Of a stretch of DNA of 64,000 nucleotides, positions 11,451-62,210 are shown piece after piece (position 1 is the stretch's first letter; each line of letters begins with the position of its first letter). Source of the DNA: Halioglobus japonicus (GTDB lineage Bacteria > Pseudomonadota > Gammaproteobacteria > Pseudomonadales > Halieaceae); the NCBI RefSeq assembly GCF_001983995.1, contig NZ_CP019450.1:806001-870000 (forward strand). The letters are read 5' to 3'. The translations under genes were made by a program, and so were the position numbers. The notes under the pieces are model-generated. The model was not told where the DNA came from and ran no database searches. It saw only the letters and a program-made list of their open reading frames with translations.

Positions 11451-13600
11451 ATGTCAATTAAAAAACAAATTCTGGGGACAAAGGCCGTGGGCAAAGGAAG
11501 AATGACAACAGGGAAATGGTTGCGACCGGTCGCAGGCGTCGTATTAGGCGCGTTTGCGATGGCCGTCCAGGCGGAGCCGATTATTCAGGACATCGAGTTC
11601 AGCTCGCGCCCGGGCAGCAAATTTGAGGTGCGACTGGATTTCAATGAGCCGCCCCCGAGGCCAAGGCTTACACCATTGAGAAGCCGGCGCGTATCGCCAT
11701 GGATTTCCCCGGCGCGAGCTCTAAGCTGGAGCGCAAGCGCTACTCCCTGCCCTATGGTAATGCCACGGGTGTGGTGGTGCTGGAGTCCGGCGATCGCACC
11801 CGCATGGTGGTGAACCTGGTCAAGCTGGTGCCCTACGAGACGCGTGTTGAGGGCAACAGCATGTACCTGGTGGTTGGCCAGGACGGCGACGATTATCTCA
11901 AGCCTGCCTCCGATCCGAATCGATTGCCCACTGAGGTGACCCCGGTGGCTGATGTGGACTCAGAAATCAGCGATTTGCAATTCCAGCGTACGGCTGACGG
12001 CGAGGGCCGTCTGACCCTGGCGCTGACCGACCCTTCGGTGGACGTGAACGTGTTCAGCGAGGCGGGCGATATCAAGCTGCAGTTTGTCGACACCAATGTG
12101 CCCGAACGACTGATGCGCCGCTTTGATGTGACCGACTTTGCTACACCGGTGCAGAGTGTGGACGTCAATACCACTGAGCGCGGCGCGACGCTGACACTGA
12201 AGACGGCCGGTGATTTCGATTACCTGGCCTACCAGACGAACAACGAGTATGTGCTGAGTGTGAAGCCCCTGACCCTGAAAGAGGTTGAGGAGCGTCGCAA
12301 CGAGTTCGCCTATGTGGGCGACCGGATCTCCCTGAACTTCCAGGATATTGAAGTGCGCGCGGTACTGCAGTTGATTGCCGACTTCACGGAAATGAACCTG
12401 GTGGCCAGTGACACGGTGCGCGGTCGTATTACCCTGCGTCTGCAGAATGTGCCCTGGGACCAGGCACTGGAGCTGGTGCTGAAGACCAAGGGCCTGGATA
12501 AGCGCATGATCGGCAATGTACTCATGGTGGCTCCGGCGGCTGAGATCGCCGAGCGCGAGCGCCAGGAGATTGAAGCGAATAAGCAGATCGCCGAACTTGC
12601 ACCGCTCGTGTCCGAGTTTGTCCGCATCCGTTACGCCAAGGCCAGTGACGTTACCAAGTTGTTCCAGGCCGGCTCCGAAGAAGGCGGCAGCCTGATCTCG
12701 TCTCGCGGCTCGGTGGTTGTCGATGCGCGTACCAACTCACTGATCATTACCGATACTGCCAACAAGATGCAGGAGATTCGCGACCTGATTGAGCTGGTCG
12801 ATATCCCGGTACGCCAGGTCATGATTGAGTCCCGTATTGTGATCGCCCAGTCCGACCTGACCCATAACCTGGGTATTGAGTGGGGCGGCGGCTACATCGA
12901 GCCTGACCTGAATGGCAATATTGGCTCGATCTCCGGTGATACGGCCAACGTGGCTGCGCTCAACCAGTCCATCATCAACGGTACGACGCCTAGTGTGTCC
13001 TACCCGGGTGCCCTGCTGGTTGACCTGGGTGTGGCCAGTACCAGTGGCTTTGCGGTGGGCTTCACCAGTGACGACCTGTTCCTGACAGCGGAGCTGTCAG
13101 CCCTGGAAGCGGCCGGTGAAGGTGAAGTGGTCTCCCAGCCGAAGGTTATTACCGGCGACAAGCAGCAGGCCAATATCAAGTCGGGTACCGAGATTCCCTA
13201 CCAGGAAGCTTCTGCCTCCGGTGCGACATCGACTTCCTTTAAGGAAGCGGTACTGGAGCTGGATGTGACCCCAAGTATTACCCCGGACGATCGCATCATG
13301 CTCGACCTGGTGATCAAGCAGGATTCCGTGGGCGAGCTCGTGCCCTCCGGTCGCGGCGGTTTTATCCCCTCGATTGATACAACGGAACTGAACAGCCAGG
13401 TGCTGGTAGGCAATGGCGAGACGGTTGTGCTCGGCGGTGTCTTCAAGACCGAAGATCTGGAATCCGTGAACAAGGTGCCGTTCTTTGGAGACATTCCCTA
13501 CGTGGGCGCGTTCTTCCGCAGCACCTCGATTTCCAAGACCAAGACAGAGACCCTGATCTTCATCACGCCGAAGATTCTCGCGGACACTCTGCTCGACTAA
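11451..13600 (+). CDS. pilQ: Type IV pilus outer-membrane secretin PilQ, frameshifted
   Basis: Multimeric outer-membrane secretin through which the pilus passes. The N-terminus has a signal peptide ([11 protein letters not shown]) and the beginning of an AMIN domain up to LDFNEPPP. The frame is then lost at the C run 11652-11656. One more C gives [22 protein letters not shown] and a continuous reading frame to 13600 with the second AMIN region, the STN/N0 domain ([20 protein letters not shown]), an N1 domain and the secretin domain ([34 protein letters not shown]). Corrected length is about 716 residues, normal for PilQ. Start choice (ATG 11451 or ATG 11502) is uncertain. The TAA overlaps the aroK ATG. 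Confidence 0.93.
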
Positions 13601-47926: not shown

Positions 47927-48589
47927 GTGCGCATTCTGCTTGTCGAAGACGACATACAACTGGGTGAATCCCTGGAGAGCGCCCTGCGCCTGGAAAAATA
48001 TGCCGTAGATTGGCTGCGCAGCGGTGAACCGGTTCGCGCGGCTCTGGGTGCGACGCCCTACGACCTGATTATTCTCGACCTCGGTTTGCCGGGGGTTCCC
48101 GGTATGCAGGTGCTGCGCCAGCTGCGCGCCGATAAACACGACCTGCCTGTGCTGTTACTGACCGCCCGCAATACGCTTGATGACAAGGTCGACGGTCTCG
48201 ACTCTGGTGCCGATGACTTTCTCACCAAGCCGTTTGAGATCGACGAGCTGTTTGCGCGTATGCGCTCGCTGTTGCGCCGCCGTGGTGGACAGGGCCGTGG
48301 TACGGCGACGATGCGGGCAGCGGGCATAGAAGTTGATCCTGCAGACAGGGCAGTCGCCTTCGAGGGAGAAACGCTGGACCTGACCGCGCGCGAATATGCG
48401 ATTCTGGAAATCCTGGTGCGTAACGCCGGTCGTTTTGTTTCCCGGGCGCGTCTGGAGGAGGGCATTTACAGCTGGGGCGAGGAGGTTGGCTCAAATACGG
48501 TCGAGGTCTATATCTCGCGGCTGCGTAAACGCTTCGGCAGTGCCACTATCGAGACCATGCGCGGGGTAGGTTACCGCATCCCGACATGA
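47927..48589 (+). CDS. OmpR-family response regulator (QseB/PmrA-like)
   Basis: 220 residues: receiver domain with phosphoacceptor Asp51 (LIILDLGLPG) and Lys in TKPFEIDELFARM, then a winged helix (TAREYAILEILVRNAGRFVS, YISRLRKRFG). GTG start at 47927. It overlaps the histidine kinase by four bases, so the pair is translationally coupled. The targets cannot be inferred from sequence. Confidence 0.92.
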   Translation: MRILLVEDDIQLGESLESALRLEKYAVDWLRSGEPVRAALGATPYDLIILDLGLPGVPGMQVLRQLRADKHDLPVLLLTARNTLDDKVDGLDSGADDFLTKPFEIDELFARMRSLLRRRGGQGRGTATMRAAGIEVDPADRAVAFEGETLDLTAREYAILEILVRNAGRFVSRARLEEGIYSWGEEVGSNTVEVYISRLRKRFGSATIETMRGVGYRIPT

Positions 48590-49971: not shown

Positions 49972-50925
49972 CTATTCCTTTATGGGTGCGTGGGCCGCAC
50001 CTACGAGGCCGGGGTGTGGGGCGGTAATGATTTGCACCGGTACCCTGGAGAGAAACTCTTGCATGGCGCCCTTGGCCCGGAAACGCTCCAGAAAGGCACT
50101 TTCACGGAGATAGGGTGTGATGCGCGGGACAATGCCGCCGGCGATAAACAGCCCGCCGTAGGCCCCGTTACTCAGCACGAAATCACCGCAACAGGATCCC
50201 AACAACGCGCAGAAAGTTTCCAGTGCGGTAACACAGTGGCTGTCACTCCCGGCCAGGGCGCGCTCAGAAACCTGAGCAGGCGTTAAATCTTCCACCGGCT
50301 GACCATTGATCTGTGCAATGGTCTGGTAGAGGCGCGCCAGGCCCGCGCCACAGACGAACAGCTCAGTGTAGATGTTGCCGTACTGGGGCAGCAGGTGCTG
50401 GAATATGGCCAGCTCTAGTTCGTTGCCGGGGGACAGGCCCGCGTGTCCTGGCTCGGCGTCACTGGCTACGGCTATGCCGTTCACTTGCCGCAATGAGGCG
50501 CCGCCCAGGCCGGTGCCAGGGCCCACAACCGCCAGCGGCAGTTCATTATTGGTTTCTCCCGCCTGCACGCCTTCGAGTTCGCCACTGCCCAGGTACGGAA
50601 GGGCGTGGGCATTGGCCTGAAAGTCGTTGAGCCAGAGAAATTGGGAAAAGCCGAATCGCGTCGCCAGCTCGCTGCAGGAAAAACCCCAGCCAATGTTAAT
50701 CATCTGTACCCGGTCACCGGAAGGTGGAGCTGCTGCTGCAATACAGGCCTGCTGTGGTGGTGCTTCCTCGAGATCGCCAAGCCACTGCTCGATGACTTCT
50801 TCCAGGTTGTCGTACTCGTTGTTGCTGTAGCCGGTAACGGACCGAAAGTCGTTAATGTCAGCATCGTAGATACCGATGCGGGTATTGGTGCCGCCAACAT
50901 CGGCGACGAGGCGAGTGTGGGGCAT
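49972..50925 (-). CDS. glk: Glucokinase
   Basis: Phosphorylates glucose to glucose 6-phosphate with ATP. 317 residues with the ATP-binding ADVGGTNTRIGIYD and the GPGTGLGGA loop, plus LNDFQANAHALPYL. It is one base overlapped with pyk, giving a small glycolytic operon, pyk then glk. Confidence 0.94.
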   Translation of the reverse strand: MPHTRLVADVGGTNTRIGIYDADINDFRSVTGYSNNEYDNLEEVIEQWLGDLEEAPPQQACIAAAAPPSGDRVQMINIGWGFSCSELATRFGFSQFLWLNDFQANAHALPYLGSGELEGVQAGETNNELPLAVVGPGTGLGGASLRQVNGIAVASDAEPGHAGLSPGNELELAIFQHLLPQYGNIYTELFVCGAGLARLYQTIAQINGQPVEDLTPAQVSERALAGSDSHCVTALETFCALLGSCCGDFVLSNGAYGGLFIAGGIVPRITPYLRESAFLERFRAKGAMQEFLSRVPVQIITAPHPGLVGAAHAPIKE

Positions 50926-52385
50926 TATTGGACTTCGAGTATCTTCATGATGTTGGTGGAGCCGGTTTGACCCATGACGGTGCCCTTGGTGAGCAGGATC
51001 GAATCGCCCTTGCGCAAATAGCCGCCGTCTTGGAGGAATTCAATCGCGCGGGACTCGATTTCTTCGTCGTCGAAAGCGCCGGCATCGAAGAACTTGGGCA
51101 CAACCCCTCGGCAGAGGGTGAGCTTTTGCAGAGTCTCCGGCCTGGCACTCATGCCGAAAATAGGGAGCCCGGAACTGAGGCGCGACATGAGCAGTGGGGT
51201 GCTGCCGCTCTCGGTCAGGCAGGCAATGCCGCGGACGTTGCCGTAGTGGTTGGCGGCGTAAATTGCGGCCATGGCAATGGTTTCCTGGGCCGTGGAGAAC
51301 TGGCGTTCCAGTCGATAGCGAGAGGTGCGGGCAACGGCTTGCCGCTCGGCACCCAGTGCCGCGTCTGACATGGCTTTGACTACTTCCACGGGGTACTTGC
51401 CGACCGCGGTTTCAGCAGACAGCATGACTGCGTCCGTGCCGTCGAGCACGGCGTTGGCAACGTCAAATACCTCCGCGCGCGTGGGCATGGAGTTGTCGAT
51501 CATGGACTCCATCATTTGTGTGGCGGTAATTACCACGCGATCCATTTTACGCGCGCGGGCAATGAGTTCCTTTTGAATACCGATCAGCTGCGCGTCACCC
51601 ACCTCTACACCCAGGTCGCCGCGGGCAACCATGACGCCCAGCGAGGCGCGGATAATACCGTTGAGGATTTCTTCGTCGGCCACGACTTCAGCCCGTTCGA
51701 TCTTGGCGATAATGCCTGCATCGACGTTGCTCTCGTTGAGTAGATCGCGAGTTTGCTGGATATCAGCTGCGCTGGACACAAAGGACACCGCCACGAAATC
51801 AGGTTTAACGTGGCTGAGTTCCTTGATGTCGGCCATGTCTTTTATGGTAAGCGCCGGGGCGGCCAGACCACCACCGAGTCGATTAATACCCTTGCGAGAA
51901 CTTAGCTTGCCACCAATGACGACGGTGCACTCAACCGTTGAGGCAGTGACCTCATCGACCTTGAGTCGCATGCGGCCGTCGTCCAGCAGGAGGATGTCGT
52001 CGCGGCTGACGAAATTGCATAGCTCGCGATAGTCCAGGCCCACGGCGCGTTGATCGCCCTCACATTCACCCAGGTTCAGATCCAGCCGAAATGGGTCACC
52101 TTCTGCGAGTTGGACGGCGCCTTCGCGAAACGTGCTGATGCGGATTTTTGGGCCCTGCAGATCGGCGAGTATGCCCACGTAGCGCCCGGCGATGGCTGAC
52201 TGTTTACGTATCCGCTTGGCCACGAGCGCATGCTGCTCGCTGCTGCCATGGCTGAAGTTGAGGCGGAATACGTCCACGCCGGCACTGATGAGCCTGGCGA
52301 GCATGTCCTCGGATTCACTGCCCGGACCTACGGTGGCAACAATTTTGGTCCGTCGATTTATTTTTGGTGTCACGTCGATGTCCAA
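50925..52385 (-). CDS. pyk: Pyruvate kinase
   Basis: Converts PEP and ADP to pyruvate and ATP. 486 residues: barrel start RRTKIVATVGPGS, catalytic IEDGRMRLKVDE-like region, MVARGDLGVEVG, the DAVMLSAETAVGKYP motif and a C-terminal regulatory domain ending at TGSTNIMK. Whether it is the PykA or PykF type is not decided. It is transcribed before glk. Confidence 0.95.
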   Translation of the reverse strand: MDIDVTPKINRRTKIVATVGPGSESEDMLARLISAGVDVFRLNFSHGSSEQHALVAKRIRKQSAIAGRYVGILADLQGPKIRISTFREGAVQLAEGDPFRLDLNLGECEGDQRAVGLDYRELCNFVSRDDILLLDDGRMRLKVDEVTASTVECTVVIGGKLSSRKGINRLGGGLAAPALTIKDMADIKELSHVKPDFVAVSFVSSAADIQQTRDLLNESNVDAGIIAKIERAEVVADEEILNGIIRASLGVMVARGDLGVEVGDAQLIGIQKELIARARKMDRVVITATQMMESMIDNSMPTRAEVFDVANAVLDGTDAVMLSAETAVGKYPVEVVKAMSDAALGAERQAVARTSRYRLERQFSTAQETIAMAAIYAANHYGNVRGIACLTESGSTPLLMSRLSSGLPIFGMSARPETLQKLTLCRGVVPKFFDAGAFDDEEIESRAIEFLQDGGYLRKGDSILLTKGTVMGQTGSTNIMKILEVQ

Positions 52386-52503
52386 TCTGCGGGTGCTTTT
52401 GGACGCCAGTGCAAAGAGGCTGGCGTTAATCGGGTTTGTGGGGAACCGGTAAAGGAATAATGCCCTGTTGTGAGCGGTGGCGCCAGCGGGGAGCGCGTGA
52501 ATC

Positions 52504-53508
52504 TTACCTGTCCAGGAACGCGCGCGTGAGATCTGGGAAATCGGTAAACAAACCGTCGGCTTTTACAAGCTCAAACAGCGCAGTGTGTAACTGCTCCACG
52601 GTTATGCCATCGGGCAGGTCGTCGGCACGCAAGGTATAGGGATGGACCACCAGGCCCGCCTCGTGAGCCAACTCCGCAAGTCCGGTACTGAATGCTGCTC
52701 CGCTGGCGCCATCGATTGTGAGCAACTGGGGAATCCAGGGGCCGATGCCATCGGCGTAGGTGGCGATATCGGCAATGCCCGCGGCGGTGCGCATGGCATC
52801 GTAGTCATTGTCACCGTCTTCGCCCCAGCTATTGTCGGCGATGAGTTGAATGAGCGGTAGCGGTGTGTTCAGTTCATGGCGCAGGCGCCTGAGGGTAGCC
52901 GCGTCGAAACACTGGAGAATGACCCGATCGGATTGGTCTGTGTAGCCGGTTTGCTCGAGCACGGCGAGAACCGCCTTGGCGGCGTCGTAGCCCTGCTGCG
53001 TGTGCCATTGGGGAGCTTTCAATTCGATGTAGAGACCTGTGTGGCGGCCGGTGCTGCGATTGAGGCCTGTGATGAGATCGATCTCTTCCTTTAAGGTAGG
53101 CACCGTGAAATGGCCGGTATCGAGTGGGAACCGCCCGGGATAGGCGGCTTCGCGCTCGCCGGTGTCGCGCTTAACAGTGCGCTCATGGGCGCGCAACGAG
53201 CGAATCTCCGCCAGACTGAAATCCAGCGCATAGTAGCGCCCATCCTCTCGGGCGCGATCGGGGAAGCGCTCTTCCACATCGGTGGTTGGGTCCAGGTGGA
53301 TGTCGTGTAAGACAATAGGTATGCCATCGGCGGTTAATACCACGTCCTGTTCGAGAAAGTCCGCTCCCATGGCGTGGGCCATGGCCTTCGCTTCCAGGGT
53401 GTGTTCAGGCAGGTAACCACTGGCGCCGCGATGGGCGATCACCAGTGGATTGGCGGAGGCCACGCTTATGCCCAGCAGCGCCAGCAGGGCGCAAATAAAC
53501 CGATACAT
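52504..53508 (-). CDS. glpQ: Periplasmic glycerophosphodiester phosphodiesterase
   Basis: Hydrolyses glycerophosphodiesters to glycerol 3-phosphate and alcohol. 334 residues: signal peptide (ALLALLGISVASA), then IAHRGASGYLPEHTLEAK, the Glu/Asp metal site LEQDVVLTADGIPIVLHD and the C-terminal DGLFTDFPD. As GlpQ enzymes release phosphate-containing compounds, its place near possible Pho sites may be relevant. No glpT is present. Confidence 0.9.
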   Translation of the reverse strand: MYRFICALLALLGISVASANPLVIAHRGASGYLPEHTLEAKAMAHAMGADFLEQDVVLTADGIPIVLHDIHLDPTTDVEERFPDRAREDGRYYALDFSLAEIRSLRAHERTVKRDTGEREAAYPGRFPLDTGHFTVPTLKEEIDLITGLNRSTGRHTGLYIELKAPQWHTQQGYDAAKAVLAVLEQTGYTDQSDRVILQCFDAATLRRLRHELNTPLPLIQLIADNSWGEDGDNDYDAMRTAAGIADIATYADGIGPWIPQLLTIDGASGAAFSTGLAELAHEAGLVVHPYTLRADDLPDGITVEQLHTALFELVKADGLFTDFPDLTRAFLDR

Positions 53509-53530
53509 GGGGAAAGTGTCTGGGCTGCCA

Positions 53531-54340
53531 TCAGGGCAGTGCGCTCACCCAGTCGCTCTGCTCAAACCATTTTTTGCGCAGGTTGGTGAGCACGCCGGTT
53601 TTCTCGTATGCCCGCAGGTAGTTGCTTACCAGATTCTGAAAAGAGGGGTCGTCGAGGCTCACGGCAATGCCTACGGGTTCGATGGTTAACGGTTCCTGCA
53701 GCGTAACTAGGCCAGCGTCCCGGTGGCGCAGCACGGCGAGCTTGCACACGGCCATATCGGCCATTAGTGCATCCACTTTACCTTGCAGCAGCATTGCTAC
53801 GCCGGCATCACTGCTCTCTACCGCCACCAGGTTAGCATCGGGGGCGATTTCGCTGACGAACATGGCGCTGGTTGAGTTCTCCACGGCGGCCAGCTTAAGG
53901 TCAGCGCGATTAAAGTCCTCGCTGTTCTGGGCGGCGGCCAGCACTGAACTGCGAGTCAGGATTGACTTGCCAGACATCATGTAGGGGCCGATGAAGTGGG
54001 CCCGCTCGGAGCGCTCCGGGGTAATCGAGAGATTCGACATAATCATGTCGATCTCATCGTTCTCCAGGGCGTCCAGCAGCTCGCCGAAGGGCAGGACCTT
54101 GATATCCAGCTCGACGCGCATGGCCTTGGCCAGGCCTTTGGCGAGATCAATATCAAAGCCCATGACGCCGCCTTGCTTGCTAATGGCCGTCATGGGCGGT
54201 TGGTCACCGGAGGTGCCTACCGTCAGGGTCTTGAAATCGATAACACGCTGCAGCGAGTCCCCCGCGAGAGTGACTGGGGTAATAGCGAGGGCAACAAGAA
54301 AAGCAAAACCCGGCAAAAGCCGGGTGAAAGAGGTGGTCAT
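53531..54340 (-). CDS. Periplasmic amino-acid-type solute-binding protein
   Basis: 269 residues: signal peptide (FAFLVALAITPVTLAGD) and a family 3 solute-binding fold (LTVGTSGDQPPMTAISKQGG, MGFDIDLAKGLAKAMRVELD, MIMSNLSITPERSERAHF). Such proteins bind polar amino acids or serve as sensors. No permease or ATPase is nearby, so the transport partner is unknown. Confidence 0.85.
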   Translation of the reverse strand: MTTSFTRLLPGFAFLVALAITPVTLAGDSLQRVIDFKTLTVGTSGDQPPMTAISKQGGVMGFDIDLAKGLAKAMRVELDIKVLPFGELLDALENDEIDMIMSNLSITPERSERAHFIGPYMMSGKSILTRSSVLAAAQNSEDFNRADLKLAAVENSTSAMFVSEIAPDANLVAVESSDAGVAMLLQGKVDALMADMAVCKLAVLRHRDAGLVTLQEPLTIEPVGIAVSLDDPSFQNLVSNYLRAYEKTGVLTNLRKKWFEQSDWVSALP

Positions 54341-54353
54341 GGCATCTGTTTCC

Positions 54354-54629
54354 TTACATCACACAGTGCTTGGCAAATGTAGACGCCTCGCTGGCGGTCC
54401 ATTCTCCCTTGTCCTTCTCGGACAGTTTTTCGCACCATTTTTCTGAACCCACCTCGCTGCCATCGATAATGCAGTTCTTGGCAAAGGTGGCAGCGTCGCC
54501 GCCTGTCCACTCGGATTTGGGTTGTTCTTTTTTCTCGTTACACCAGCGTTCACTACCCGGTTCAGCGCTGCAGGCGCTCAGAATCAGTGCGCCCGCAATA
54601 AGACCGGTGGCAAGGAAAGTTCGTTTCAT
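54354..54629 (-). CDS. DUF3012 lipoprotein with two repeats
   Basis: 91 residues: a lipobox (LILSAC) after a short signal peptide, then two copies of the DUF3012 motif GSERWCNEKKEQPKSEWT and GSEKWCEKLSEKDKGEWT, each ending in FAKxC. Every repeat has two Cys that may pair. Most DUF3012 proteins I know of carry one copy; function unknown. It lies 13 bases from the solute-binding protein gene and may be expressed with it. Confidence 0.75.
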   Translation of the reverse strand: MKRTFLATGLIAGALILSACSAEPGSERWCNEKKEQPKSEWTGGDAATFAKNCIIDGSEVGSEKWCEKLSEKDKGEWTASEASTFAKHCVM

Positions 54630-54750
54630 TGTTGTGTCCTTCTGGGTGTGCATTCTCTTTCAGTATTGCACTGGTTTGGGAATGTCGCCAGTTTCGTGAC
54701 ATCTGGGTATCTGCAATTGCAATTTCCCGGGGGGTGCTAAATAATGGGAT

Positions 54751-55404: not shown

Positions 55405-55422
55405 GTGAAATTTTTATGACAC
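55405..55422 (-). promoter_or_regulatory. Pho-box-like site (minus orientation)
   Basis: Read on the minus strand, GTGTCATAAAAATTTCAC matches 15 of 18 positions of the PhoB consensus CTGTCATAAAWCTGTCAC by hand alignment. It sits 68 bases before the small SutA-like gene on that strand and about 190 bases before the lipoprotein gene on the other. Confidence 0.5.
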
Positions 55423-55500
55423 GTATTCACCTGACACCAGATGCTTCGACCGCTAACAACACGCTAGCACTACATAAGATTTAACAATTCCGACATGTCC

Positions 55501-55518
55501 AGATCACATTTTTGTCAC
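55501..55518 (+). promoter_or_regulatory. Weak Pho-box-like site before the lipoprotein gene
   Basis: AGATCACATTTTTGTCAC has two TCA half-sites 11 bases apart, the Pho-box spacing, with about 11 of 18 consensus matches. A TTGTC follows at once. A possible -10 (TTAGAC) lies a few bases later. Low confidence. Confidence 0.3.
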
Positions 55519-55610
55519 GTTGTCCTCTTAGACTGCGGCCCATAGCAACCGGTGAATGTGCCGGGAATATATGTGTCGTGCGTTCTTGCACTTTAAAACA
55601 GGGGTTCAAC

Positions 55611-56000
55611 ATGATTCGTGAAACTCGGCTGAAGCAGATATGGCTCGCGCTGCTTCTTACTTCGCTCACCGCCTGTGGTGGTTCTTCGTCTGACAATGTC
55701 TCGCCTGGTCAGATTGTTGTTGCTCCTGACGGCGACGGCGGTGGTGATGGCGGCGGAGACGGCGGTGGTGACGGTGGCGGAGACGGCGGCGGAGACGGCG
55801 ATGTCGTCATGAGCGTTATTCCCGCGAGCCTGGAGTCGGTCATTACGCCTTCCGGTGAGACCGCGAACGACGGTCGTGAAATTTACGATATCGACGTGAC
55901 CGCGCTGCCGGGTGGTCGCTTGAATCCCGAAGGCCTGTTGCTGGGCAACGACGTCGTGTTTCGAATTTCAGGCGGCGCCCTTAGCGTCGGCAACGGTTAA
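55611..56000 (+). CDS. Gly-Asp-repeat lipoprotein
   Basis: 129 residues: signal peptide with a lipobox (LTSLTAC, then GGSSSDN), a low-complexity stretch of GDGG units (about residues 40-64), then a compact C-terminal part (SVIPASLESVITPSGETAND; LPGGRLNPEGLLLGNDVVF). It is 15 bases upstream of the beta-helix gene and so probably cotranscribed. The repeat could be a flexible, Ca2+-binding spacer; that is inference. I do not recognise the C-terminal part. Confidence 0.75.
   Translation: MIRETRLKQIWLALLLTSLTACGGSSSDNVSPGQIVVAPDGDGGGDGGGDGGGDGGGDGGGDGDVVMSVIPASLESVITPSGETANDGREIYDIDVTALPGGRLNPEGLLLGNDVVFRISGGALSVGNG
55728..55803 (+). repeat. In-frame Gly-Asp coding repeat
   Basis: Imperfect copies of a 12-base unit of the kind GGTGGTGATGGC/GGAGACGGCGGT, coding for alternating Asp and Gly runs in the lipoprotein. 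Such arrays can change copy number by slippage. Confidence 0.85.
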
Positions 56001-56015
56001 GGGAGAGATTGCAGA

Positions 56016-59000
56016 ATGAACCGTACAAAACTTTACAGCGCCGTTGCGGCAGGCCTGCTGGTTTCCACCGGCTACAGCGCTCAATCACAGGCCCAGTCCT
56101 GTGTACTTGAAGTGGCCAAAGGCGCCACTATCGTCGGTGCGACCAACGAGGATTTCCTGGTCATCGAGCAGGGTTGTCAGATCCGCGCCGAAGGTACAGC
56201 CGAGCAACCGATTAACTTTACCGCTGACAAGGCGGTGACTGGCGAGGTTGAGAACAACGAACGCGGCCTCTGGGGCGGCCTGGTCATCAACGGCTTCGCA
56301 CCGATCAACGATTGCCCGGAAGGCGTCGCAGGTGGCACCGCTGAGTGTACCAAGGAAGGCGAGGCGAACTCCGGCCTGTTTGGTGGTGACGATCCCGCTG
56401 ACAACAGCGGTATCCTGAAGTATGTGGTTGTCTCTTACGCAGGCTCCAACGTCGATCCAGAGAACCAGTTGAACGGCATTGCGTTCCAGGGTGTCGGTTC
56501 CGGTACAGAAGTTGATTACGTGCAGGTTCACAACAACCTGGACGACGGTATCGAATTCTTCGGTGGTACTGTATCCGCCAGCCACGTGGTACTGACGGGT
56601 AATGCCGATGACTCCCTCGACTGGACTGACGGTTGGCAGGGCAGCATTCAGTACTTGTACATGGAGCAGAAAGACAGCGGCGATAACCTCATCGAAGCGG
56701 ATAACCGCGAAGGTGACGAGAACGCTGAGCCGCGGTCACTGCCCGATATCACCAACATGTCTGCTTACGGTCTGGGTGGCGAGAACGGTCTGCGCTTCCG
56801 CCGCGGTACTGGCATTCACCTGACTAACAGCTTTGTTGTGGACTCCGGTACCTGTCTGCGTATTGGTGGTGAATCGCGCAACCTGCTCGGTACGGATCTG
56901 ACGATCGGCGGTACCAGCTTTGGCTGTGCCGAGACACATCGGGATGACGACGACGGCGCGGTCGAGGCCTACCTCGATACCGCAGAAGAAGTCTCCCAAA
57001 CTGGCGGCCAGGTGAACCCTGTCACACCGTCCGGTGACTTTGAATCAGCACCCTTTATCGGCGCGTTTGGTGGCGATGACTGGACAGCTGGCTGGACAGT
57101 AGCGGGTTCCGTGAGCAACGGTGGCGGCGACCTGCCGAGCACAGGTTGTCCCGCGGGTACCACAGAGGGTGGCGATATCAACGGTACGCCTTCCTGCATT
57201 TTGCCCCAGAGCATTACATCTGACCTGACCTTGTCGTCCGGCAACTTCTATGTGCTCGATGGCAAGGTTGTTGTCGGCGGCGACAACGCAGACTCCGCGA
57301 CCCTCACTGTGAACGCGGGTGTGACTATCGTAGGCGATGACGCCGAGGACTTCCTGGTTATCTCGCGGGGTTCCCAGATAGTCGCGAACGGCACCGCCAA
57401 TGCGCCGATCACGCTCACCGGTCTCGCCGACGTCGACGGCACAGGTGTGAGTGACGCGACACGCGGTCTGTGGGGCGGTCTGGTGATCAACGGTAACGCG
57501 CCGATCAACGACTGTCCTGAAGGTGCTGTTGGTGGCACCGACGAGTGCACCAAAGAAGGCGAGGCCAACTCCGGTCTGTTTGGCGGTTCCGATGCCAGCG
57601 ACTCAAGCGGTAGCCTCAAGTACGTGGTGGTCAAGTACGCCGGCTCTAACGTTGACCCTGAGAACCAGCTCAACGGCATCGCATTCCAGGGCGTCGGCTC
57701 CGGCACCATGGTCGATTATGTGCAGGTTCACAACAACCTGGACGACGGCATCGAGTTCTTTGGCGGCACTGTTTCTGCCAAGCACTTGGTGCTCACAGGC
57801 AATGCCGATGATTCTCTCGACTGGACAGACGGTTGGCAGGGCAACATTCAGTACCTGGTGATCAACCAGGCGGCTGATTCAGCAGACAACGGTATCGAAG
57901 CAGACAACCGCGAGGGCGACGAAAACGCCATGCCGCGCTCTGCGCCGATGATTGCCAACATGTCCATCGTTGGCAACCCGGGTGAGCGCGGTGTTCGTTT
58001 CCGCCGCGGTACCGGTATCCGCATGTACAACACCTACATTACCGACAACGCCACCTGTATTGACGTCGACGGTGACACCTCCAACGGCCTGCTGGGCACC
58101 GAAATCCTGTTTGACGGCGTGTCCTTCAATTGCCCTGAGGTGGTTGACGGTGACAACCCCGAACTGCAGTCCTACCTCGACAGCCTGGGCAATGTGTCCC
58201 AAACCGGTGGCTCTGTCATGCCGGTAGATCTCGCGGGCATGGGTGACTTCGAAACCGTTGACTTCATCGGTGCGGCAGACCCTGCCAACGACTGGACTGC
58301 GGGTTGGGCCTTCGGTGACATCGACCTTGGCAGCCCGGACTTCCCGGCTGAGCCTGCGGGCTGTCCCGATGGCATTACCGAAGGTGATGACATCAATGGT
58401 ACGCCCTCGTGCCTGCTGCCGCAGAGCATCATCGCCGACATGCAGCTGACCATGGGTAACTACTACGTACTCGACGGCAAGGTGACCGTGGGCGGTGATA
58501 ACACCGACTCAGCAACCCTGACGATCGATGCTGGTGTAACCATCGTCGGTGACGACGCCGAGGACTTCCTGGTCATATCTCGCGGTTCCCGGATTGTGGC
58601 AAACGGCACGGCAACCGCGCCTGTCACACTGACCGGCCTGGCCGACGTGGATGGCAGCGGTGTTGCTCCGGTGACTCGCGGTCTCTGGGGTGGTCTGGTG
58701 ATCAACGGTAACGCGCCAATCAACGACTGCCCTGAGGGTGCTCAAGGCGGCACTGTTGAGTGCACCAAGGAAGGCGAGGCCAATTCCGGCCTGTTCGGTG
58801 GCGCGGATGCCGCCGACTCAAGCGGTAGCCTCAACTATGTTGTGGTCAAGTACGCAGGTTCCAACGTCGACCCCGAAAACCAGCTGAACGGTATCGCCTT
58901 CCAGGGCGTGGGTTCCGGCACCATGGTTGACTTCATCCAGGTCCACAACAACCTCGATGACGGAATCGAGTTCTTTGGCGGCACCGTTGATGCCAAGCAC

Positions 59001-59531
59001 GTTGTACTCAGCGGCAATGCAGACGACTCGCTGGACTGGACCGACGGTTGGCAGGGCCGACTGCAGTATGTCCACATCGTCCAGGCTGATGACTCTGCCG
59101 ACAATGGTATCGAGGCTGACAACCGTGAAGGTGACGAGAACGCCGAACCGCGTTCCAACCCGACCATTGCCAACATGTCCATCATGGGTAACTCCGGCGA
59201 GCGCGGTATTCGCCTCCGCCGCGGCACCGGTGCTGACCTCTACAACGTGATGGTGAGCGGCAACGCAACCTGTATCGATGTGGATGGCGATACCTCGATC
59301 GGGCTGATAGGCATGGATATCAATATCGAGAGCGCGTCTTTCGGTTGTCCTGAGGTTGTCGACGGCGACAACGCGGACCTGCAGATTTACCTGGACGGCG
59401 CGGTTAACGTGACCCAGGACGGCAGTATTCCGACGGCCGCCACTCTGCCATCCGATGGATTCTTTGAATCCTCTGACGTGGTCGGTTCCGACTTCGACAG
59501 CTGGAAAGGCTCCTGGGTATTTGGCCTGTAA
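56016..59531 (+). CDS. Large secreted protein with three beta-helix-like modules
   Basis: 1171 residues: signal peptide (AAGLLVSTGYSAQSQAQ) then three homologous modules of about 400 residues. Each holds EDFLVI, RGLWGGLVINGxAPINDCPEG, CTKEGEANSGLFGG, NNLDDGIEFFGGTV, ADDSLDWTDGWQG and ADNREGDENA, and a conserved Cys pair. Asp/Asn-rich turns are typical of right-handed beta-helices and could bind Ca2+. Proteins of this type are often found beside TonB-dependent receptors, as here, but the function is unknown. No anchoring domain or sortase signal is seen, so it may be periplasmic or surface associated. Confidence 0.75.
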   Translation: MNRTKLYSAVAAGLLVSTGYSAQSQAQSCVLEVAKGATIVGATNEDFLVIEQGCQIRAEGTAEQPINFTADKAVTGEVENNERGLWGGLVINGFAPINDCPEGVAGGTAECTKEGEANSGLFGGDDPADNSGILKYVVVSYAGSNVDPENQLNGIAFQGVGSGTEVDYVQVHNNLDDGIEFFGGTVSASHVVLTGNADDSLDWTDGWQGSIQYLYMEQKDSGDNLIEADNREGDENAEPRSLPDITNMSAYGLGGENGLRFRRGTGIHLTNSFVVDSGTCLRIGGESRNLLGTDLTIGGTSFGCAETHRDDDDGAVEAYLDTAEEVSQTGGQVNPVTPSGDFESAPFIGAFGGDDWTAGWTVAGSVSNGGGDLPSTGCPAGTTEGGDINGTPSCILPQSITSDLTLSSGNFYVLDGKVVVGGDNADSATLTVNAGVTIVGDDAEDFLVISRGSQIVANGTANAPITLTGLADVDGTGVSDATRGLWGGLVINGNAPINDCPEGAVGGTDECTKEGEANSGLFGGSDASDSSGSLKYVVVKYAGSNVDPENQLNGIAFQGVGSGTMVDYVQVHNNLDDGIEFFGGTVSAKHLVLTGNADDSLDWTDGWQGNIQYLVINQAADSADNGIEADNREGDENAMPRSAPMIANMSIVGNPGERGVRFRRGTGIRMYNTYITDNATCIDVDGDTSNGLLGTEILFDGVSFNCPEVVDGDNPELQSYLDSLGNVSQTGGSVMPVDLAGMGDFETVDFIGAADPANDWTAGWAFGDIDLGSPDFPAEPAGCPDGITEGDDINGTPSCLLPQSIIADMQLTMGNYYVLDGKVTVGGDNTDSATLTIDAGVTIVGDDAEDFLVISRGSRIVANGTATAPVTLTGLADVDGSGVAPVTRGLWGGLVINGNAPINDCPEGAQGGTVECTKEGEANSGLFGGADAADSSGSLNYVVVKYAGSNVDPENQLNGIAFQGVGSGTMVDFIQVHNNLDDGIEFFGGTVDAKHVVLSGNADDSLDWTDGWQGRLQYVHIVQADDSADNGIEADNREGDENAEPRSNPTIANMSIMGNSGERGIRLRRGTGADLYNVMVSGNATCIDVDGDTSIGLIGMDINIESASFGCPEVVDGDNADLQIYLDGAVNVTQDGSIPTAATLPSDGFFESSDVVGSDFDSWKGSWVFGL
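56121..59520 (+). repeat. Three direct repeats within the beta-helix gene
   Basis: Modules begin at about 56121, 57315 and 58529, a period of roughly 1.2 kb, aligned at the EDFLVI motif. Stretches such as GTTCACAACAACCTGGACGA and GAGGCGAACTCCGG recur with few changes, so the copies may recombine or mis-assemble. Confidence 0.85.
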
Positions 59532-59549
59532 GCGACGAGAGTGCATTAC

Positions 59550-62180
59550 ATGAAACGCAATCGACTAGCAGCAGCGGTCACCTCAGTGCTGGCGGGACTT
59601 TCCGCCGGCACTGTTGCACAGGACATTGATGTTCCTTCGCCGCAAATCGAAGAAGTCTTTGTGCTCGGTGAGTTCATTCCTGATGAAAAGCGAGACACCT
59701 CTGAAATCTCCAATGTGGTTGGCGAAGAGGATATGAACATCGTGCCCGAGACCACCGTGGGTGCCACCCTGGCCCGTGTATCCGGTCTCAGTCTCGTGGG
59801 TGGCAAGTACGTCTATGTCCGCGGGCTCGGGGAGCGCTATTCATCAACCCTGCTCAATCGCTCAAGGATTTCATCTCCGGTACCGTTTCAGAAAACGGTG
59901 CCCCTGGATATCGTCCCCAACAATATCGTGAAGAGCCTGCTGGTACAGAAGACCTATTCTGCCCAGTATCCAGGTGATTTTTCCGGTGGTGTGGTTGATA
60001 TCCGTACCAAGACAATCCCGGATGAGGATTACCTGACGGCCAAGTTGAGGATCGGTGGCAACTCCGAGACCACGGGTGGCGACGGCATCTTCTATCGCGG
60101 TGGTGAAAACGACAACTGGGGTTGGGACGATGGTACGCGCAAGATCCCCAAAAACATCCAGGGTCTGACCAGCGAAGAGTTTGAGGACGTCGACTACCCG
60201 GCCAAGTCGAATCTCGGAGCCAGTTTCTATAACAACTGGGACATCTATGAGAAGGACATGAAGCCTATCTATTCCGGTGATCTGGAACTGGGTAAGCGCT
60301 TCGACCTCGATAATGGCCAGGCCATTGGCATTCTTGCGAACGTCAAATACACCAACATCTGGAACAATACGATCAAGGATCTGGCGCGCTATGAGTTCAC
60401 CGGTGTGGACGGTGGCAGCAACCAGACAGTGGATTACACGCGTTGGATCACCAAGCAGACGGTGAACCTGAGCGGCTTCCTCAATGTTGGCTGGGAGATC
60501 AACCAGGACAACTCGCTGTCCGTTACCGCGCTGAATCTGCGTCAGTCCGAGGACGAGGTGCAGCAGGACCGCGGTTTCTCTTCTGAGGACGATGTGACCG
60601 ATGGCACCTTCGTGGAGAGCTATCGCCTGCAGTGGACCGAGAACGAAATCATTTCCTATTCGCTGAACGGTGAGCATTACTTCAGCGGCCTCAACGATAT
60701 GCTGCTGGAGTGGCGGGTTGTCGACGGCAGCGGTTCCCGTGAAGCCCCTGATACCCGCACCTATACCTACGCCGAAGATAACTCCGGCAATATGGCCGTG
60801 GTGCATCCGGGTAGCCAGGCCGCGGGTGATTTGCGCGATGTATACCAGGCGCCTGATCGCAACTACAGCAAGCTCGATGACACGATTGAGGAATACGGCT
60901 TTGATATCGAACTGCCCCTGGACTTTCTCGATAGTGTGATCAAAGCGGGTTACTCCACTTACGAGCGTACTCGTGAGAGCGAAGACCGCCTGTTTCGATT
61001 CGAACTACAACCCGGTACACCTCAGTATGTTGCATGGCAGACGCCGCGGCAGTTGTTCAGTAATGACAACTGGATAGATCAGTACCTCGCCGTACGTGAT
61101 TTCTCGGCAGGCCAGGCGAATGCTTCGGGTATTTTCCCGTTCGCCGAATCTTCGGAGGAAGTAGAAGGGTTCTACGGTTCCTGGGATGCTCAAATTCTGT
61201 CGACGGTGCGCTTACAGTTGGGTGTGCGCGACGAGCAAACTGATATTGTCGCCGATGCGTGGGGCGGCAATACAGATCCAGGCACCGAAAACCTGGTCAA
61301 GCGCTCTTATAGCGACACGCTGCCTGCAGTGTCGATGACCTGGGAGTTTGTGGAGAATATGCAGCTGCGTTTTGCCTGGTCTGAGACGGTTAACCGTCCC
61401 AGTCTTTTGGAGATTACCGGTTCGACGCTGCGCAATCCCGAGGACCAGAACCTCTACCGCGGCAACGTGTTCCTGGAGCCGGCGGATGTAGAGAACTATG
61501 ACGCCCGTTGGGAGTGGTATTTCGGCAGCGCGGATGAAATGTCGTTGGGTGTGTTCTACAAGGAATTCACCGACCCCATCGAGATTGCCAAGATTCAGGC
61601 CCAGGGGGATATTTTCACCTGGTTCAATGCCGAGGAAGCAGAGTTGGAGGGTGTGGAGTTTGATATCCGCAAGGATCTTTACTTTGCTACCTGGTTTGAC
61701 CTCGACCCGGTGTGGGATGGGTTTCGCATTCAGGCCAACGTGTCGTGGATAGACTCTGAGGTGACACTGCTTGGTGACGGTGAAACCGCTGCGGATATTC
61801 CGCTGACAGGTGGCCGCCAGATAGCACCTCTGTTCTCCAATGAACGCCAGATGACGGGCCAGTCAGATGTATTGGGCAACCTGCTGTTTGTGTTCGAGGA
61901 CTACGATCTGGGGATTACCACCAGCCTGGCTTACAACTACACCGGTGAGCGGATTGCGCTGGTGGGTGAAAACAATGCGCCGGACATTATTGAAGAAGCC
62001 CGCGGGCGTGTTGATCTGCTGTTCAAGTATGCATTGCCCTGGGGCAATGACACGCTGGAATTCGAAGCCAAGGCGGCGAATATCCTCGATTCCGAGGTTG
62101 AGCTGACCCAGGGTGGGCAACTTTATGAGCGTTGGGACCCCGGCGTGACTTACAGCTTTGGCCTGAAGGCCAGGTTCTAG
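59550..62180 (+). CDS. TonB-dependent outer-membrane receptor
   Basis: 876 residues: signal peptide (AAAVTSVLAGLSAGTVAQ), a TonB-box candidate (IEEVFVLGEF), a plug domain (VPETTVGATLARVSGLSLVG; YVRGLGERYSSTLLN; PGDFSGGVVDIRTKTIP) and a beta-barrel ending in a terminal Phe (FGLKARF). It lacks the STN domain of FecA-type transducers. The substrate is unknown; the partner beta-helix protein and Gly-Asp lipoprotein are encoded just upstream. The TonB2 cluster in this window may energise it. ATG 59550 is chosen over an upstream GTG. Confidence 0.92.
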   Translation: MKRNRLAAAVTSVLAGLSAGTVAQDIDVPSPQIEEVFVLGEFIPDEKRDTSEISNVVGEEDMNIVPETTVGATLARVSGLSLVGGKYVYVRGLGERYSSTLLNRSRISSPVPFQKTVPLDIVPNNIVKSLLVQKTYSAQYPGDFSGGVVDIRTKTIPDEDYLTAKLRIGGNSETTGGDGIFYRGGENDNWGWDDGTRKIPKNIQGLTSEEFEDVDYPAKSNLGASFYNNWDIYEKDMKPIYSGDLELGKRFDLDNGQAIGILANVKYTNIWNNTIKDLARYEFTGVDGGSNQTVDYTRWITKQTVNLSGFLNVGWEINQDNSLSVTALNLRQSEDEVQQDRGFSSEDDVTDGTFVESYRLQWTENEIISYSLNGEHYFSGLNDMLLEWRVVDGSGSREAPDTRTYTYAEDNSGNMAVVHPGSQAAGDLRDVYQAPDRNYSKLDDTIEEYGFDIELPLDFLDSVIKAGYSTYERTRESEDRLFRFELQPGTPQYVAWQTPRQLFSNDNWIDQYLAVRDFSAGQANASGIFPFAESSEEVEGFYGSWDAQILSTVRLQLGVRDEQTDIVADAWGGNTDPGTENLVKRSYSDTLPAVSMTWEFVENMQLRFAWSETVNRPSLLEITGSTLRNPEDQNLYRGNVFLEPADVENYDARWEWYFGSADEMSLGVFYKEFTDPIEIAKIQAQGDIFTWFNAEEAELEGVEFDIRKDLYFATWFDLDPVWDGFRIQANVSWIDSEVTLLGDGETAADIPLTGGRQIAPLFSNERQMTGQSDVLGNLLFVFEDYDLGITTSLAYNYTGERIALVGENNAPDIIEEARGRVDLLFKYALPWGNDTLEFEAKAANILDSEVELTQGGQLYERWDPGVTYSFGLKARF

Positions 62181-62186
62181 TGATCA

Positions 62187-62210
62187 GGGGCGCTTAGCGC
62201 CCCTTTTTTT
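62187..62210 (+). terminator. Rho-independent terminator after the receptor
   Basis: GGGGCGC-TTA-GCGCCCC followed by seven T, seven bases after the stop codon. It ends the lipoprotein-beta-helix-receptor transcription unit. Confidence 0.95.

Follow-up and report, generated by a model that had tools for sequence, protein, structure and literature searches.

In Caulobacter, the phosphate-starvation surface lipoprotein ElpS (Cc0170) was reported in 2010 to be encoded beside the TonB receptor gene cc0171 and genes of the type II secretion system (T2SS), a layout reported also from Hyphomonas neptunium and other species (PMC2996285). The induction of elpS (CCNA_00169) by phosphate starvation is restated in PMC5172544, and in the 2010 account the T2SS was required for the release of ElpS, not for its surface display (PMC2996285). 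Here we describe a window of 64,000 nucleotides from Halioglobus japonicus (contig NZ_CP019450.1, positions 806,001 to 870,000), in which three adjacent genes encode a lipoprotein (LIP), a three-module beta-helix protein (HEL) and a TonB-dependent receptor. Comparison with relatives makes it almost certain that LIP and HEL are the halves of one ElpS-type protein, the gene of which was split inside the helix front of module 1. The original prediction had taken the three genes for a candidate undescribed surface system, a claim that does not survive the report of the ElpS/Cc0170-Cc0171 pair in 2010 (PMC2996285) and that of Flavobacterium relatives in 2020.

As at the ElpS/Cc0171 locus, the gene of an exported, lipoprotein-anchored protein stands directly before a TonB receptor gene in the window. 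ElpS is reported as one chain, released by a protease that depends on the T2SS, whereas in the window lipobox and helix are divided over two genes and only the gene pair has both; unlike at the ElpS locus, the body is three modules long and adjoining T2SS genes are absent. The new element, compared to the known kind, is this split of the anchor and front (LIP) from the helix body (HEL), a form that was not found in the literature as far as our searches went. The low-phosphate lipoproteins FI, FII and FIII of Flavobacterium johnsoniae, reported as modest relatives of ElpS and as phosphate-responsive, come from another phylum, where they are described in SusCD-like clusters or as orphans. SusC/SusD-type systems likewise join a TonB-linked outer-membrane transporter to a lipoprotein partner, but the window body is a beta-helix and no SusD family was found in LIP or HEL (Pfam, E ≤ 0.1). 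In two-partner secretion (TPS), the gene of a large beta-helix exoprotein likewise lies beside that of an outer-membrane barrel; the barrel in the window differs in being a TonB receptor with a plug, and a Pfam scan found neither a TPS domain in HEL nor a POTRA-bearing transporter. Right-handed beta-helix polysaccharide lyases, epimerases and tailspikes were compared with HEL at the level of fold (9-15% identity), and no lyase, hydrolase or epimerase Pfam family matched HEL over its cut-off.

Division of one protein between LIP and HEL

LIP and HEL form a single polypeptide in all 15 fused gammaproteobacterial rows of the alignment, in which the lipobox, a stalk of low complexity (Gly/Asp, Ser, Gly/Thr or Pro/Glu in composition), the LIP core and the helix follow one another without a break. 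The window sequence breaks off after GGALSVGNG, and HEL picks up at CVLEVAKGATIVG behind a new signal peptide, at a site that is a variable-length loop of the fused proteins between early beta-helix strands. The split is made by a stop codon, followed by a probable ribosome site and by another signal peptide, which is not of the lipoprotein type, leaving LIP with the anchor, stalk and helix front and HEL with the remainder. The lipoprotein had been predicted as a separate component; the 15 fused relatives identify it instead as the detached front of the same protein. The features concerned are as follows.

55611..56000, + strand: LIP, 129-aa lipoprotein from ATG, with signal peptide, lipobox Cys22, Gly/Asp stalk and C-terminal core
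55800..55997, + strand: LIP core (residues 64-129), front of the module-1 beta-helix with the C-terminal end GGALSVGNG
56001..56006, + strand: GGGAGA, probable ribosome site of HEL as read from the sequence, immediately 3' of the LIP stop
56016..59531, + strand: HEL, 1171 aa, ElpS-type protein with a right-handed beta-helix of three modules
56016..56093, + strand: Sec signal peptide of HEL, with probable cleavage after SQA (residue 26), at the cut site of the ancestral protein
59550..62180, + strand: TonB-dependent receptor with plug and barrel, 876 aa, or 879 aa from GTG 59541
62186..62210, + strand: intrinsic terminator, stem 62186-62204 and T-run

These three open reading frames (ORFs) run in one direction between a conserved upstream block and the terminator. 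ORFs, gene order and the 62186-62204 stem agree with the earlier description of three exported proteins on the same strand ended by one terminator, as does the 1171-residue repeat protein with its three modules. The gap between LIP and HEL is 15 nt, and that between HEL and the receptor is 9 or 18 nt, depending on the receptor start; a longer LIP ORF of 162 aa, as listed, begins at a TTG upstream of the ATG. The sites were read with the standard lipobox and signal-peptidase cleavage rules; the former gives LTAC with Cys22 for LIP, which together with a Gly/Asp run at about residues 40-63 bears out the predicted Asp-Gly stalk of the lipoprotein. The terminator stem has eight pairs, seven of them G-C, followed by TTTTTT. 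It has the most G-C pairs among 13 candidates, of which the number is no evidence since shuffles predict 8.6.

The split form was found in six genomes, namely that of the window, G158, Seongchinamella sediminis, S. unica, Pseudohalioglobus sediminis and a Haliea metagenome-assembled genome. The stop is TAA, TAG or TGA in these loci, and the distance from stop to ATG is 12-15 nt. If the stop were read through, one long protein would be made and the split would be only apparent. The single frame shared by LIP and HEL in the window and in loci L002, L003 and L017 would allow this, but the HEL ATG in L005 is out of frame with LIP, so read-through is excluded there, and the variable stop codon and the signal peptide at the cut likewise argue against it, leaving it exceedingly improbable.

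Selection on the two parts was estimated as dN/dS. Within the genus, the ratio of the LIP core was 0.09 (window-L005) and 0.03 (L005-L017), and three pairs that include the Haliea locus gave 0.12-0.40; these are only five of ten pairs, with the L002 pairs and the window-L017 pair (dS not computable) left out. HEL gave 0.07-0.19 over ten pairs. As judged from these ratios, both the LIP core and HEL are under purifying selection, and both the limited pairs and the weaker constraint on the LIP core against the Haliea locus than within the genus count against the proposed two-chain surface protein. In an alternative that we regard as improbable, HEL would be freely secreted after the fission, perhaps via one of the two type II systems of this genome, and LIP would have a separate small role or act mainly as a translation leader, with no binding between them. 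This would suit the ordinary Sec signal peptide of HEL, the GspD and GspG matches (both over their cut-offs) at two places in the genome away from the unit, and the reported release of ElpS to the medium by Caulobacter (PMC2996285). Against it, LIP retains its lipobox and its helix strand, its end residue is shared by 11 of the 12 stand-alone LIP matches, and its core is under purifying selection. The twelfth stand-alone match, P0129 (217 aa), combines a LIP core with an EamA-type piece on a contig of 944 bases and is probably an assembly chimera.

Fold and probable assembly of the two chains

The three HEL modules share 62-76% pairwise identity (226/338, 208/334 and 258/341), and each of the seven signature motifs searched occurs once per module in all three. 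In an AlphaFold2 model of the LIP-HEL pair read through as one chain, LIP residues 61-129 are packed on the helix with high confidence and the signal peptide is unordered. The model supports the packing of LIP on HEL, and it is likely that the two chains reassemble into one helix; a counterweight is that the modelled sequence was a joined chain and its alignment contained fused rows, which biases the model towards packing. Cys29 and Cys54 of HEL co-occur or are both missing in all 186 ungapped rows of 187 (138 with both, 48 with neither), rows that overlap in part as loci and proteins from the same genomes, suggesting a disulfide that would pin the strand behind the cut. The cysteine pair is not specific to the split form, being present in fused relatives too.

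The LIP core showed no significant homology to the segments preceding modules 2 and 3 (66 and 134 of 500 shuffles as good), and hhalign of the core against these segments did no better than control pieces. Neither LIP nor HEL matched a Pfam or NCBIfam family over its cut-off, a sequence search of the Protein Data Bank (PDB) gave no relative of HEL, and Foldseek returned no match below 1e-3. All of the best 120 relatives of HEL carry the precomputed label PF28492, of which no mention was found in the literature searched.

Distribution and number of fissions

In the family survey, the long form (E ≤ 1e-100) was present in 12 of 140 genomes, of which six were split by open frame, five were fused and one (G400) was broken by a contig end. 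After removal of the N-terminally cut P0043 and P0087, the best 120 relatives left 118 usable proteins (46 split, 67 fused and five fused without a recognised lipobox), a set that is not a frequency survey as it was ranked against a split query. A survey of the order gave a HEL match in 132 of 390 genomes; among those listed, the match mostly lies in a shorter open frame (about 420-980 aa); in L098 and L101 of that survey, a stop lies inside the matched stretch.

The whole-length tree needs two changes, and a single split clade was rejected by the approximately unbiased (AU) test (p 2.6e-5) on 34 rows that were picked after the first whole-length tree was seen, the split label having been set earlier. 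The cut lies in module 1, the tree of which brings the split rows together with a support of 36 and does not reject one split clade; in modules 2 (AU p 0.038) and 3 (p 0.052) they are not grouped. This disagreement suggests recombination among the repeated module copies. On these trees the split may have had more than one origin, each at this loop; one or two fissions fit, and exchange between copies can explain the discordant trees as well as two fissions.

The TonB receptor and its link to HEL

HEL relatives are encoded in 176 stretches, and the 80 best of these gave the 78 loci used here. Of the 74 loci that extend at least 1000 nt beyond HEL, 73 have a TonB receptor gene directly 3' of it on the same strand, the exception being L068; L012, L020, L022 and L075 have too little downstream sequence and were excluded. 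With 43 receptors over the cut-off in the 4.1 Mb of the H. japonicus genome, such adjacency is rarely expected by chance. The pair is kept in marine gammaproteobacteria, including SAR86 loci. The co-conservation on which the idea of one exported system depended was thus borne out for HEL and the receptor; the lipoprotein was seen as its own gene in six genomes and is a piece of the HEL protein rather than a partner in its own right. The sequences themselves show the fission and its occurrence in six genomes, the constraint on both parts and the link to the receptor.

Only Plug and TonB_dep_Rec_b-barrel matched the receptor in Pfam at E ≤ 0.1; a signalling domain was not found in that search, consistent with the prediction of a receptor lacking one. 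The best NCBIfam match, TIGR01782, reached 251.4 bits, below its cut-off of 310. Five PDB sequence matches of the receptor, all viral nucleoproteins with E of about 0.05, were taken as chance.

Kinship with ElpS and type II secretion genes

HEL is taken to be of the ElpS kind from gene layout and linked relatives. HEL matches L065 and other loci of the relatives set, including genomes with the elpS-receptor-T2SS layout. L065 (Hyphomonas jannaschiana) has the order HEL, receptor, gspC, gspD and gspE; the SAR86 locus L058 has a gspC match below the cut-off, then gspD and gspE. GspD lies further downstream in 35 of the 65 loci with at least 7 kb, and two Hyphomonas relatives were named lipoprotein by their sources. 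Elsewhere in the window, a secretin at 12332-13585 (+ strand; 650-aa frame) gives two partial matches to the GspD model (194 and 31.8 bits), below the cut-off, and is perhaps of the PilQ type.

Proposed phosphate control and function

Scored against the Pho-box consensus, 22 of 63 family upstream regions reached at least 11 of 14 positions, compared to 29 of the 506 regions that served as controls. Enrichment was also seen for two of the four control motifs (rotated, 11/63 against 8/506; 6-nt spacer, 7/63 against 7/506) and the other two gave 1/63 and 2/63 against 11/506 and 11/506; given these and the relatedness of the upstream loci, the Pho-box p-values are too good. The six split loci have a conserved block in 11-bp phase, with TTTAACAATTCTGCAAC ... 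ATCACATTnnTGTCAC in most of them, which in the window is:

55480..55523, + strand: four 11-bp steps TTTAACAATTC, CGACATGTCCA, GATCACATTTT and TGTCACGTTGT, PhoB-box-like and conserved 5' of LIP in the six split loci

We infer a phosphate role of the LIP/HEL/receptor unit, which is somewhat the more probable case. In the proposed mechanism, LIP would be sorted as a lipoprotein to the outer membrane, bearing the first helix strands on its flexible stalk, and HEL would be exported via Sec with its own cleavable signal peptide, its new N-terminus lying at the next strand. The two would rebuild the helix non-covalently by strand stacking, which would hold the three-module protein on the cell surface. 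There, during phosphate starvation, the protein would bind or process a phosphorus-containing substrate, and the neighbouring TonB receptor would import it. We lean modestly towards the proposal as a whole, a split ElpS-type surface protein that is reassembled and scavenges phosphorus with the receptor; surface exposure, phosphate control and the nature of the substrate are conditional parts of it, and for the hand-over of substrate to the receptor we would put the chance slightly below even. More doubtful, and offered tentatively, is that one beta-helix is built from two chains exported separately, one by lipoprotein sorting and the other by plain Sec, which come together at the outer membrane; the working part could then dock on or leave its anchor without an ElpS-type protease step.

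Further points weigh against the proposal as a whole. The report on Caulobacter describes elpS and cc0171 as regulated independently, ElpS as having no phosphatase activity of its own, and phosphatase activity as unchanged on its loss (PMC2996285). The best PhoB-like sites of the window are weak (0.18 of shuffles as good in one test; 0.039 of 507 controls in another, at a place other than the conserved TGTCAC), and no T2SS genes stand beside the unit among the ORFs after the receptor within the window. The unit might instead capture and import something other than phosphorus compounds, for example a polysaccharide or a metal. Alginate epimerases, lyases and tailspikes are among the nearest solved folds, conserved acidic motifs recur in all three HEL modules, and the Flavobacterium relatives were reported to be polygalacturonase-like in models; but a common fold proves no function, the best-studied relative ElpS responds to phosphate starvation (PMC2996285, PMC5172544) and the family as a whole is enriched in PhoB-like sites, and we consider such a substrate rather unlikely.

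The locus offers a naturally divided beta-helix, each part of which has its own signal peptide, and the fused relatives are ready controls. Export, anchoring and release of surface lipoproteins of the ElpS kind become testable by co-expression and deletion, and the HEL-receptor pair is a unit worth testing in phosphorus use.

One PhoB match in the genome exceeds the cut-off and lies outside the window; within the window, a response regulator at 47927-48580 (+ strand) scored 159.7 bits with the PhoB model, the cut-off being 296.2. The minus-strand genes at 49975-54653 were considered as part of the unit and rejected, as just three of the 78 loci (L002, L005 and L017) have matches to them, L003 not being among these. 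They comprise glucokinase-like and pyruvate-kinase-like ORFs, a GlpQ-type glycerophosphodiesterase, a solute-binding protein and a DUF3012 lipoprotein, in a gene order preserved in those three loci only.
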